Positions 1 to 36,684 of a DNA stretch of 36,684 bases are shown here, piece by piece. This DNA is from Sporomusaceae bacterium (GTDB lineage Bacteria; Bacillota; Negativicutes; UBA1444): the NCBI GenBank assembly GCA_018434355.1, contig JAHDPL010000041.1:1-36684 (forward strand). Direction: 5' to 3'. The position numbers and the translations under genes are program-made. The notes beneath the pieces were generated by a model. The model was not told the origin of the DNA and did no database searches. It saw only the letters and a list, made by a program, of their open reading frames with translations. The first letter of the stretch is position 1. Every line of letters begins with the position of its first letter.

Positions 1-95
<95 letters not shown>

Positions 96-4157: not shown

Positions 4158-5125
4158 GCAAGCTCTCCTTTCAGGTACTCGCCAAGAATCATTTCGAAGT
4201 CGGCTTTTGACATGGCCTGATTGAACCGGGTCCGTAGTTCCGCCGACTTGGGATAGCCTTTTACATAGCTGGCGGCATGCCGTCGCATTTCACGGATCGC
4301 AATGTGGCTTCCCTTTAGTTCGATCAGCATATCCAGATGCCGCAACAAAGTCTGCGATTTTTCGGTCAAAGTCGGGCTGGCAGGCAGTTCCCCCCGTTCC
4401 AGCCAAGCGGCAATTTGCCGAAAAATCCATACGTTTCCGCAAGCCGCCCGGCCTACCATCACCGCATCACAGTCCGTTTCGCCGAGCAAGCGCTGTGCAT
4501 CCTGCACAGTGCGCACATCGCCATTGCCGATCACCGGAATCTTTACCGCTTGCTTTACCTGACGAATCATTGACCAGTCCGCCGTTCCACTGTAAAACTG
4601 CTCTCTGGTCCGTGCATGAACCGCAATTGCGCTGATTCCTGTTTGTTCCATTTTTTTTGCGACTTCCACCGCATTGATGCTGCCTGCATCCCATCCGGTA
4701 CGAATTTTTACCGTTACAGGTATATCGACGGCTTGCACCATCGCCTTCAATATGGCTGCCGCTTTGTCCACAGAACGCAACAAGGCTGATCCTTCCCCAT
4801 TTTTGACAATCTTGTGGGTAGGACAGCCCATGTTGAAATCGATGATATCCGCCCCGGCCGCCGCGACCCGCCGCGCAGCTTCAGCCAGTTCCTCCGGCAC
4901 GGAACCGAACAATTGAATTGCCGTCGGTCGTTCACGCGGATCAATCTTGATCAGGTCATGCGTTCGGCAATTTTCATACAACAACCCTTTGGCGCTGACC
5001 ATTTCCGACACGACAAGGCCGCACTCCATCTCTTTGGCCAGCAACCGAAACGCCAGATCCGTGACTCCTGCCATCGGGGCCAGGACTGTCGGATGCTGGA
5101 TCGTAACCTTACCGATTGCGTTCAT
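4142..5125 (-). CDS. dusB: tRNA-dihydrouridine synthase, DusB type
   Basis: Reduces specific uridines of tRNA to dihydrouridine using FMN and NADPH. The 327-residue product is a TIM barrel with APMAGVTD near residue 16, the catalytic cysteine in FNMGCP, and the phosphate-binding GNGDVRT segment. The C-terminal helical tRNA-binding domain includes [12 protein letters not shown]. The ATG at 5123-5125 lies inside the end of coaX (17-nt overlap), consistent with translational coupling. Its GAGGGG site is rather distant at about 13 nt. Position next to coaX and upstream of greA-lysS matches other Firmicutes. Confidence 0.95.
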
Positions 5126-5873
5126 GGATAATCCGCAACCCCTCGAGGGTGATGAACGGTTCGACAATATCGATCGTACGGGATTGTTGAGCAATCAGGT
5201 TGGCTAGGCCACCGGTGGCAATGACTTTGGCCTCTGTTTCGAGTTCAGCTTTCATTCGGCGGACGATCTCATCGACTTGACCGACAAAACCGAGGATAAT
5301 GCCGGCCTGCATGCTGGAAACGGTATTGCGGCAAATAACCGACTTGGGCATCACCAGCTCGATTCGCGGCAGTTTGGCCGCCCGCTGGAACAACGCTTCC
5401 GTCGAAATGCCGATCCCTGGTGCGATGGCGCCGCCCAGATAGTCGCCATTTTGTGCGATGGCACAGAATGTGGTCGCCGTGCCAAAGTCGACGATCACCA
5501 GCGGACCGCCGTATTTTTCGTATGCCCCGATCGCGTTGACAATCCGGTCGGCGCCGACTTCACGGGGGTTTTCATAATGAATCCGAATGCCTGTCTTGAT
5601 CCCCGGTCCGACAACCAGCGGTTCACCGCCGAAATAGCGGCTGCACATGCGTTGAAACGGAACGATCAGCGGCGGCACGACAGAAGAGATGATCACCGAA
5701 GTAATCTGTTTCATATCCATCTTGCCATGTTGGAACAGATTGTAGATCAACATTCCATATTCGTCTGAAGTGCGCTGACGGTCGGTCGAAATCCGCCAGT
5801 GACAAAGCAACTCCTTCTCGCGATATATGCCGAGCACTATATTCGTATTGCCAATATCCACGACCAATAGCAT
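5109..5873 (-). CDS. coaX: Type III pantothenate kinase
   Basis: Catalyses ATP-dependent phosphorylation of pantothenate, the first step of CoA synthesis. The 254-residue product has the acetate/sugar kinase fold marks of CoaX: DIGNTN at residues 6-11, the central [12 protein letters not shown], and the adenine/phosphate loop DFGTATTF. The C-terminal ATGGLA is also typical. The ATG is placed at 5873 after a GGGAGAGG site; a TTG one codon earlier is possible. It follows birA by about 50 nt and overlaps dusB. With panC and panD nearby, three steps toward CoA are clustered here. Confidence 0.95.
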
Positions 5874-5925
5874 CAAAAACCTCTCCCTTGTTCAATAATC
5901 CCCAGGTCATTCCAGTATCGTCAGG

Positions 5926-6906
5926 TTATTCGGCGAGGGACCGAATAGATACATCTCCGGCGAGTACCCGCTCGACTCCTGTCGCCGTCTCGACCAGTAA
6001 AGCGCCATCCACGTCAATATCCAAAGCCTTTCCGGCAAACGAGCGATCCGGAGCGATCACGTTAACAACGCGATTCAATGTGATCGATTCCTGACGCCAG
6101 GCATCCAACACCGTCGCAAAACCTTCCTTCTTTACCGCCAGATAAAGCTCTTCCAGTCGGGCAAGGATTTGAATGAACAAATCCAACCGCGGCACTGCAA
6201 CACCGGTTTCGAGCTGCAACGAAGTTGCCACTGATTGCAACTCGGGCGGAATGTCCGCTTCAGTGATATTCACATTGACGCCCATGCCGATCACGATGTG
6301 ATTGATCGCATCCATCTCCGCACTCATTTCCGTCAGGATGCCCACCAATTTTTTTCCATTGTACAGGATGTCGTTCGGCCACTTGATTCCGCTCGCCAGT
6401 CCGGTACAGTCATGAATCGCCCGGTTTATCGCCACCGCAGCCATCAAGGTGCATTTTGGCGCTTCCTGCGGCGGGAACGGCGGACGCAAAATGAGGGAAA
6501 ACCAAATCCCCTTGGCAAACGGAGAAAACCAGCCGCGAGCAAGCCTGCCGCGCCCACCCAGTTGTGCTTCGGTGATCACCAGCGTTCCCTCGGGATAACC
6601 TTCGACCGCTCTGCGTTTCGCCTCATCATTGGTCGAGCCGATTTGCGAAAAATAGATGATCTCTTTGCCCAACACACCGGTTTGCAAACGAGAACGGACT
6701 TCTTCCGGTCGCAGCAAGTCCGGCAGTGCTACCAACCGATGCCCTTGACTGACGGTCGATTCGATCTCGTAGCCTTCCTGACGCAGTTTTTGAATCTGTT
6801 TGCTGATGGCGGTCCGGGAAACACTGAGTTGCCGTCCCAGTTCCTCGCCGGACACAAAACAGCCAAGCCGGCTGCGCAGCAGTTCCAGAATCTTGTTACG
6901 GATCAT
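5926..6906 (-). CDS. birA: Bifunctional biotin-protein ligase / biotin operon repressor
   Basis: Attaches biotin to carboxylase biotin-carrier domains via biotinyl-AMP. The N-terminal DNA-binding domain suggests it also represses biotin genes. The 326-residue product has a winged helix (about 1-65, with SGEELGRQLSVSRTAISKQI). The catalytic domain shows the biotinyl-AMP loop GGRGRLARGW and IKWPNDIL, and a small C-terminal SH3-like domain follows. The ATG at 6904-6906 has AGAGGCG upstream; a GTG ten codons earlier is the alternative. No biotin biosynthesis gene is in the window, so any regulatory target is elsewhere. Confidence 0.94.
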   Translation of the reverse strand: MIRNKILELLRSRLGCFVSGEELGRQLSVSRTAISKQIQKLRQEGYEIESTVSQGHRLVALPDLLRPEEVRSRLQTGVLGKEIIYFSQIGSTNDEAKRRAVEGYPEGTLVITEAQLGGRGRLARGWFSPFAKGIWFSLILRPPFPPQEAPKCTLMAAVAINRAIHDCTGLASGIKWPNDILYNGKKLVGILTEMSAEMDAINHIVIGMGVNVNITEADIPPELQSVATSLQLETGVAVPRLDLFIQILARLEELYLAVKKEGFATVLDAWRQESITLNRVVNVIAPDRSFAGKALDIDVDGALLVETATGVERVLAGDVSIRSLAE

Positions 6907-6942: not shown

Positions 6943-7326
6943 TTATTTTATTTCTCCGTGCTTTTCTTCGTTTTTCATTTCCATAATCCGGTTCGCGTCG
7001 TCCAGGAACGCAACGCGAGGTTTCCACTCTTTCGCTTCGCGTTCGTCAAGCATTACATAGGTAATGATGATGACTTTATCGCCTGGCTGAACCAACCTGG
7101 CTGCGGCGCCATTCAGACAAATCACGCCGGAACCGCGCGGACCGGGTATCGCGTATGTTTCCAGTCTGGCGCCGTTATTGATGTCGACAACCTGGACCTT
7201 TTCATTAATCATGATATCAGCCGCATCCATCAGATCTTCGTCAATCGTGATGCTGCCGACATAATTCAGGCAAGCCTCCGTCACCGTGGCCCGATGCAGT
7301 TTGGATTTGAACAAAGTGCGAAACAT
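6943..7326 (-). CDS. panD: Aspartate 1-decarboxylase
   Basis: Makes beta-alanine from aspartate for pantothenate synthesis. The 127-residue proenzyme begins in the usual way ([18 protein letters not shown]). It has the Gly24-Ser25 self-cleavage site that generates the pyruvoyl group, plus the conserved [12 protein letters not shown] segment. Lys9 and Tyr57-region residues are in place. The ATG follows the panC stop by one nucleotide and has GGAGGG upstream, so the two are translationally coupled. panB is not in the window. Confidence 0.96.
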
Positions 7327-7327
7327 C

Positions 7328-8185
7328 TTATTTTCCCTCCCAGAGCATATTGTCAATCAGGCGAGTCTTGCCAAATTTTACAGCCAGCGCCAACAGCGCC
7401 CGGCTTTCAACCCGGTCCAACGCTTCCATCGTCAACGGGTCGACCAGCGACACATAATCAATCTCTGCCAGCGGCTCCTGGCTGATCAAGTCGCGGACCG
7501 TCGCTACAATCAGGGAACTGTCGCGTTCGCCCGCCGCGAGCAACGTAGCCGCCCGTTCGAGCGACCGCGACAAAACCAATGCGGCCTGACGCTGAGCGGA
7601 ATCAAGATATTTGTTGCGCGATGACATGGCCAATCCGTCGGATTCCCGGACAATCGGCACCGCTACGATTTTGACGTTCATGTTCAGATCTTCCGCCATG
7701 CGGCGAATCACCGCGACCTGCTGCGCATCCTTCTGGCCGAAATACGCGACATCCGCTTCCGCAATATTGAACAATTTGGTCACGACAGTCGCCACGCCGC
7801 GAAAATGGCCGGGCCGCGAAGCCCCGCACAAACTGGCAGTAATTTTCTCGACATCGACGAACGTCAGCGTCTTGCCGTTTCCGGCCGGATACATTTCATC
7901 CACCGCAGGAGCAAACAACACATCAATTCCCGTGCTCTCGGCCAATTCACAATCCCGCGCCAAATCGCGCGGATAATCGGCATAATCCTCCTGCGGCCCG
8001 AATTGCAGCGGATTGACGAACAACGTGGCAATCACAAGACCCTGTTCCTGTCTGGCCCGTCGCATCAGGGTCAGATGCCCTTCGTGCAGGTAGCCCATCG
8101 TTGGAACCAAACCGACGGTTTTCCCCTGCCGTTTCGCGTCGCGGACCACTTGTTTCAATTGCTCAATTTGCTGGATAACCTGCAT
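7328..8185 (-). CDS. panC: Pantothenate synthetase
   Basis: Condenses pantoate and beta-alanine with ATP to give pantothenate. The 285-residue product shows the nucleotidyltransferase HIGH-like motif in [10 protein letters not shown] near residue 31, the [18 protein letters not shown] pantoate-binding segment, GQKDAQQ, and the KMSKS-like [10 protein letters not shown]. The ATG at 8183-8185 is chosen over a start 22 codons upstream because that extension would run into the leader terminator; a GAGGTG site precedes it. It heads a panC-panD-birA-coaX-dusB transcript with its own promoter and structured leader. Confidence 0.96.
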
Positions 8186-8208
8186 CAACAACACCTCATC
8201 ATTCGTTC

Positions 8209-8244
8209 CAAAAAAACAACGCCTTCCCACAAACAGGAAGGCGC
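8209..8244 (-). terminator. Terminator hairpin in the panC leader
   Basis: On the minus strand, CGCCTTCC (8236-8243) and GGAAGGCG (8220-8227) form an 8-bp perfect stem with an 8-nt loop, followed by TTGTTTTTTTG. It lies about 25 nt before the panC start, after the panC promoter, so it can act as an attenuator as well as stopping read-through from the thioesterase gene. Confidence 0.8.
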
Positions 8245-8366
8245 ATTTCATCCGTCAGTACTTGCGTCCCCCGTCTCGGTCACCATGGATCCAAGCGGTG
8301 TCGGGAATACCGTATCGTTTTGTTCGGAACATTTCGTGCAGCTCACAAAGGATGCCGCCTTATTGC
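8238..8366 (-). promoter_or_regulatory. Candidate riboswitch or attenuator leader of panCD
   Basis: The RNA predicted to start near 8366 can form a long-range helix. AAGGCG-G-CATCC (8350-8361) pairs with GGATG-AAATG-CGCCTT (8238-8253), giving 6 + 5 bp around a 1x5 internal loop. The CGCCTT strand is also the 5' arm of the terminator, so helix and terminator exclude each other. The helix encloses about 96 nt with further pairing: TTCCCG with CGGGGG, and CACCG with TGGTG. I cannot match it to a known riboswitch class; there is no T-box sequence. The fold is inference from complementarity. Confidence 0.5.
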
Positions 8367-8372
8367 GAATTC

Positions 8373-8401
8373 ATGGTAGCATTTCGCTCAATAACAGTCA
8401 A
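8373..8401 (-). promoter_or_regulatory. Promoter of the panC operon
   Basis: TTGACT (8396-8401) and TACCAT (8373-8378) on the minus strand, 17 bp apart, immediately after the stop of the thioesterase gene. Initiation near 8366 would place the proposed switch helix within the first 20 nt of the transcript. Confidence 0.6.
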
Positions 8402-8406
8402 GCGTT

Positions 8407-8814
8407 TTAACAAGAAATCTGACGCTTTGCGGCCACTTTGGCCAAAAAAGCAGCCATATCACCGACGAGAAATCTTTCATGCCGGCAAGTCCCAACGACT
8501 TCGCGCGAATCTGAAGCCGTAACCGAAAACACCATCTTTTTCCCGGCAACTTCCACCAATTCGGCTTTGGCCGTGACAACCATCCCGACAGGCGTCGCCG
8601 CCAGATGGCTCATTTCAATCTTCGTGCCGACGCTGCCTTCGCCAGGCAACAGGCAGGGACGAATCGCATCGATCGCCGCCTGTTCCATCAGCGCCACCAA
8701 GAGCGGAGTGGCAAACACTTTTGCACCGGCATTACCGAAAATTTCGGCCGTATTACTGTCTGACACCATGACTTCAGCTTGTCCTGTCAGTCCGGATTTC
8801 AATCCTTCAGGCAT
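8407..8814 (-). CDS. FlK-like hotdog thioesterase
   Basis: A 135-residue single hotdog-fold protein resembling fluoroacetyl-CoA thioesterase FlK and its many uncharacterised relatives. The proposed catalytic set is present with near-identical spacing: Thr37 in ATPLL, Glu44 in LMEQAA, and His70 in [10 protein letters not shown]. The natural substrate is unlikely to be fluoroacetyl-CoA; a short or unusual acyl-CoA is more plausible. The ATG overlaps the end of ftsH by 8 nt, so it is translationally coupled to the protease. An upstream in-frame extension of 37 codons lies inside ftsH and is rejected. It has no helix-turn-helix, so it is not FapR. Confidence 0.8.
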
Positions 8815-35839: not shown

Positions 35840-36150
35840 AAATCCGACACAATTTCATCATTGTTTTTGAAATGTGATGATTGGGAGCGGAATAATAGCA
35901 AGTCCGTTTCAGAGAGCCGGTGGTTGGTGTGAACCGGTGCGGCGCGATTATTCTAAATCACCCAGGAACAGCTTGCCGAACCCGTGACAAATTTTTTGTC
36001 GCGGTGTTGTAGGTCAAGACGCAGGACCTGCGTTAAGGGACAGCCGGTGATGGCCGGTGGAATGAGAGAAAATTCAGGGTGGTACCGCGGGAACTCCCGC
36101 CCCTGACGTTACGTTTAACTACGTTGCGTCAGGGGCGTTTTGTTTTTCCG
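35840..36150 (+). promoter_or_regulatory. T-box leader (probable isoleucine specifier)
   Basis: A tRNA-sensing leader upstream of branched-chain amino acid genes. The conserved T-box sequence GGGTGGTACCGCG is at 36077-36089, followed by the antiterminator/terminator pair. In Stem I, TGGG (35882-35885) pairs with CCCA (35961-35964), and AATAAT (35891-35896) pairs with ATTATT (35947-35952). This leaves an internal loop whose 3' side contains A-ATC-A, so ATC at 35957-35959 is the likely specifier for tRNA-Ile. Uncharged tRNA-Ile should favour read-through. This explains the roughly 575-nt stretch between protein genes; the part left of 35800 shows nothing else clear. Confidence 0.9.
36098..36147 (+). 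terminator. T-box-controlled terminator
   Basis: CGCCCCTGACG (36098-36108) and CGTCAGGGGCG (36127-36137) form an 11-bp stem, followed by TTTTGTTTTT. Its 5' arm overlaps the region used by the T-box antiterminator. Confidence 0.9.

Positions 36151-36178: not shown

Positions 36179-36684
<506 letters not shown>

Follow-up and report, generated by a model that had tools for sequence, protein, structure and literature searches.

How is the panC-panD-birA-coaX operon of a Sporomusaceae bacterium controlled? The operon lies on the minus strand of a 36,684-nt stretch of DNA (contig JAHDPL010000041.1), which was analysed as a whole and is called here the window. Its four genes encode pantoate-beta-alanine ligase (panC, 7328–8185; PF02569 with 368 bits, TIGR00018), aspartate 1-decarboxylase (panD, 6943–7326; PF02261, TIGR00223), a biotin-protein ligase/repressor (birA, 5926–6906; PF03099, HTH_11, TIGR00121), and type III pantothenate kinase (coaX, 5109–5876; PF03309, NF009847). 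A gene for an FlK-type thioesterase is the upstream neighbour of the leader. The first-pass annotation had described a promoter, a 6 + 5 bp pairing, and an intrinsic terminator sharing its 5′ arm with that pairing, and all three were indeed located on the minus strand within 8209–8401.

The promoter is of the sigma-70 type, TTGACT-17-TACCAT (8373–8401, minus strand), with 9/12 matches and a predicted start at about 8366. The only sister genome bears a counterpart, TTGACG-17-TACTAT, at the same place before the leader RNA, and transcription is therefore predicted to begin about 5 nt before the conserved motif described below, so that the 5′ strand of the leader should be within the transcript. 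At the other end of the leader, the intrinsic terminator (8211–8244, minus strand) consists of an 11-bp hairpin (8219–8244) and a T tract.

The Leader as a Member of the pan Family

Comparison of the whole window with all Rfam families by cmscan revealed a full-length match to the pan motif RNA, RF01749, at 8267–8361 on the minus strand (model positions 1–92 of 92). The score of 40.1 bits (E 0.0011) passes the gathering score of 36.2 bits that serves as the membership cut-off, and the match is the sole one in the 3.9-Mb genome. Thus, the leader is a new instance of a described family and not a new class of riboswitch, as had been proposed, while the advice to compare it with the pan motif before anything else proved to be right. 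According to the cmscan alignment, the motif is built of tandem hairpins: H1 with two bulged A (8336–8361), and H2 (8271–8298) with a conserved 3′ tail (8267–8270), the second element spanning 8267–8298 in total, all on the minus strand; the bulged A positions are kept in both hairpins. The tandem-hairpin motif is clearly beyond chance within this same stretch; the stability of the leader as a whole is unremarkable (z −1.06 vs shuffles).

The pan motif has been described by Weinberg et al. in 2010 (PMC2864571). The leader agrees with it in the full-length match, in the tandem bulged-A hairpins, and in panC-panD lying directly downstream, in accordance with the location of the motif before panB, panC, or panD operons; no structural difference between the two was found. 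The main text of that paper gives neither an expression platform nor an effector. The motif has since been listed in Paenibacillus riograndensis (PMC5670726) and Bacillus methanolicus (PMC4342826). Beyond the 2010 description and these listings, a search of the open-access literature yielded no effector, mechanism, or platform for pan.

The element is widely distributed, being present in 49 of the 60 relatives sampled, in 197/380 genomes of the class, and in 152/398 genomes of the phylum. In the sister genome, whose panC is 77% identical, pan scores 47.5 bits. A total of 139 pan loci were extracted with their flanks, and 103 of them form a dissimilar subset. Over these 103 loci, the two strands of each hairpin match each other much more closely than they match strands swapped in from other loci (H1, z −20; H2, z −14), and both helices thus covary among relatives.

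The 5′ strand of H1 is also complementary to that of H2, for example, 8351–8361 with 8293–8298 (AGGCGG with CCGCUU) in the window and GGGCAG with CUGCCU in other pan loci. The signal for such a helix is weak (z −2.7, p 0.005 vs swapped loci), and it may represent an alternative state of the tandem hairpins.

The leader looks like a cis-regulator of panC-panD-birA-coaX acting through a choice between antiterminator and terminator, and in this respect the earlier proposal is supported. Ordinary attenuation of another kind, by a leader peptide or a T-box, is scarcely credible here. It is true that a T-box leader occurs elsewhere in the window (35868–36107, plus strand) and that the pan leader contains an ATG frame of 25 codons. 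However, no RF00230 match was found at the leader (7900–8700, up to E 10), and T-box attenuation was dropped on this ground; no clear ribosome site precedes the frame, and the sister genome does not maintain it, the corresponding frame there having only about 6 codons; leader-peptide attenuation was dropped as well.

As to the rest of the window, the T-box leader scores 95.5 bits (cut-off 93) and is followed by an ORF at 36140 resembling the acetolactate synthase small subunit and by an ilvC-like start at 36433, both functions being read by eye. The 5′ end of a 16S rRNA gene (1–94, minus strand; model positions 1–97) runs off the window edge.

The Terminator and the Candidate Strand Competing for It

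In 51 of the 103 dissimilar loci, pan has an intrinsic terminator, defined as a hairpin of ≤ −10 kcal/mol, no more than 120 nt away; 0.3 would be expected from shuffles. About half of the pan loci lack a terminator by the same −10 kcal/mol criterion, which means that either other platforms exist or the scan misses some.

Which part of the motif might act as the antiterminator was addressed by comparing duplex energies. The 5′ arm of the terminator was paired with each pan segment from its own locus and from swapped loci (64 dissimilar loci), with the pairing of the H1 and H2 strands themselves, given above, as positive controls. Only one segment stands out, namely, the 3′ strand of H2 together with the tail: the duplex energy is −10.65 for own and −9.29 for swapped partners (z −5.0, p < 0.0001; 0 of 20,000 permutations equally good). 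No signal was obtained over these 64 loci for the 5′ strand of H1 (z −0.19, p 0.42), nor for the H1 3′ and H2 5′ strands. The H2-tail signal holds outside the class (p 0.0001) and is weaker within it (p 0.017); the value for the H1 5′ strand within the class is p 0.07. When the target was lengthened by up to 16 nt before the terminator, which brings the GGATG element discussed below into range, the H1 5′ strand still gave no signal over all loci (p 0.43), and within the class both strands were marginal (p 0.063, and 0.064 for the H2 tail).

When the H2 tail and the terminator arm were compared column by column for covariation, no clean diagonal appeared because the registers shift between loci; it is for this reason that the duplex swap test was used instead, with the other pan segments as controls. 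Partition-function folds of transcripts ending with the terminator 5′ arm point the same way: the main partner of the arm is the H2 3′ strand/tail in 28/65 loci, compared with 5/65 for the H1 5′ strand. Of the three nucleotides at the base of the H2 3′ strand, the tail duplex takes at least two in 60 of 64 loci and so competes with the base of H2. In silico, therefore, the pairing of this strand with the terminator 5′ arm and the sensor fold are mutually exclusive. In the window, the candidate family-wide antiterminator strand occupies 8264–8274 (minus strand) and can pair with 8233–8244.

The Long-Range Pairing in the Source Species

The pairing noticed originally, called P1, joins AAGGCG-G-CATCC (8361–8350) with GGATG-AAATG-CGCCTT (8253–8238, minus strand). 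On its account, it had been suggested that P1 closes an aptamer of about 96 nt and that a ligand stabilising P1 (8350–8361 with 8238–8253) switches the genes on. The pairing does exist: it belongs to the predicted minimum-energy fold of the transcript ending in the terminator loop (−35.4 kcal/mol). However, the cmscan alignment shows that hairpin H1 has AAGGCGGCATCC, the P1 5′ strand, as its own 5′ strand, and P1 and H1 consequently exclude each other. In relatives, P1 pairing shows no excess over chance in the swap tests described above, and hence the expected conservation and covariation in related panC leaders is lacking. In the only sister genome, P1 is lost, GGATG being replaced by TTATG and AAGGCG by ATGGCG, and the predicted partner of the terminator arm is the H2 tail (0.65 of the arm). 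An aptamer closed by P1 is thus not supported, and a ligand-stabilised P1 turning the genes on is very improbable.

P1 may nevertheless be a species-specific variant rather than a general mechanism. According to fold energies, its 3′ side, GGATGAAATGCGCCTT (8238–8253, minus strand), is the partner of the H1 5′ strand and a candidate alternative antiterminator specific to the window. With the transcript extended just to the end of the terminator 5′ arm, P1 is at −35.4, the pan fold at −29.2, and the H2-tail antiterminator at −25.1 kcal/mol; once the 3′ arm is present as well, the terminator states are the most favourable (−46.8 to −47.4 kcal/mol in the window). A mixed model can be considered in which pan is an OFF switch as elsewhere, but the antiterminator of the source species is the H1 5′ strand. 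In its favour, the window energies prefer this strand over the H2 tail by about 10 kcal/mol, and, as noted, it is the main partner in a few other folds; against it, the sister genome has lost the pairing, and no family-wide signal was obtained for the H1 5′ strand. We regard this model as rather unlikely.

Whichever antiterminator is real, the sign of regulation appears to be the same and opposite to that first proposed. Since P1 must break H1, anything that binds the pan fold works against P1, and a stabilised pan fold would favour the terminator.

Genes Downstream of pan

Among the 103 dissimilar loci, the first gene after pan encodes a DUF2520/Rossmann protein in 43, PanC in 24, PanB in 16, and a PanS-like BASS transporter in 12; more rarely, it is an ECF S-component (2), panD (2), birA (1), an SSF symporter (1), or BioY (1). 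The gene for the DUF2520 protein is often located before panB, and our guess is that it encodes a ketopantoate reductase. The names of the transporters are tentative, as a representative PanS-like protein scores below the curated cut-off (309 vs 400) and the SSF symporter is far below that of PanF (95.7 vs 328). In 7 of the 103 loci, no panB, panC, panD, or DUF2520 gene was found within about 1.5 kb, and mostly transporters are there.

Two genomes, G019 and G032, carry, besides the copy before panC, an extra pan copy preceding a PanS-like BASS transporter (loci L022 and L070); the sequence retrieved around these extra copies contains no pan gene. Links between genes for biotin and pantothenate supply recur: pan precedes BioY and an ECF S-component at one locus (L112) and birA and an ECF S-component at another (L046), and birA is also part of the operon in the window.

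The presence of vitamin synthesis and probable import genes under one element suggests feedback by the end product, in agreement with an OFF switch. It may be supposed that the pan element exerts feedback on pantothenate/CoA supply, either via a metabolite or via a protein, and the transporter targets narrow the effector to this supply.

Proposed Mechanism and Its Sign

Our main reading, with a probability of about three in four, is that the pan-motif leader controls panC-panD-birA-coaX by conditional termination, with the H2 tail as the antiterminator and the folded pan motif as the OFF state. Without the effector, the H2 3′ strand and tail would be released from H2 and bind the 5′ arm of the terminator, allowing read-through; in the source species, the H1 5′ strand could serve as the antiterminator instead. 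The effector, which might be a product of the pantothenate/CoA pathway or a protein reporting it, would hold both pan hairpins folded. No antiterminator would then be formed, the terminator would form, and the genes would be off. Comparative sequence data thus suggest what is new for the family: a terminator platform based on the H2 3′ strand, and a sign reversed with respect to the initial proposal.

The scheme resembles two kinds of known systems. The FMN and TPP switches, for example, are OFF riboswitches of the terminator type, which place cofactor synthesis under feedback control. Like them, pan would combine mutually exclusive antiterminator and terminator with a folded sensor that favours termination, and biosynthesis and transport genes are found downstream; unlike their multi-helix pocket, pan has two small hairpins. 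The PyrR-binding pyr leaders are protein-dependent attenuators in which a small hairpin bound by the regulator selects the terminator. In pan, hairpins bound by a regulator would likewise select the terminator.

These comparisons bear on the nature of the effector. A protein-dependent attenuator, in which pan binds a (dimeric) protein, overlaps with our main model and differs from it only in the effector; the small size of the motif and the similarity of its two hairpins speak for it. On the other hand, nothing in the operons read points to a protein partner, and we know of none for pan. On balance, this variant seems somewhat probable. That pan is a true OFF riboswitch for a metabolite of the pantothenate/CoA pathway, with the tandem hairpins binding the ligand and the H2 3′ strand switching, is a less probable reading. 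A review of 2022 remarks on the conspicuous lack of a CoA riboswitch (PMC9971707), and a CoA study in B. subtilis makes no mention of a riboswitch (PMC11487621).

Implications

Since the description of the pan motif in 2010, neither an effector nor a mechanism for it has appeared in the literature found. If the proposed platform is true, both the OFF sign and the exact strand to mutate would be known for this orphan motif, which would become accessible to a simple in vitro termination assay. Finally, if pan is an OFF riboswitch for a metabolite of the pantothenate/CoA pathway, it would control vitamin B5 synthesis (panB, panC, panD, and the DUF2520 gene) and uptake (PanS-like, SSF, and ECF transporters) in many Firmicutes, and it would supply the CoA-related riboswitch whose absence has been remarked on.
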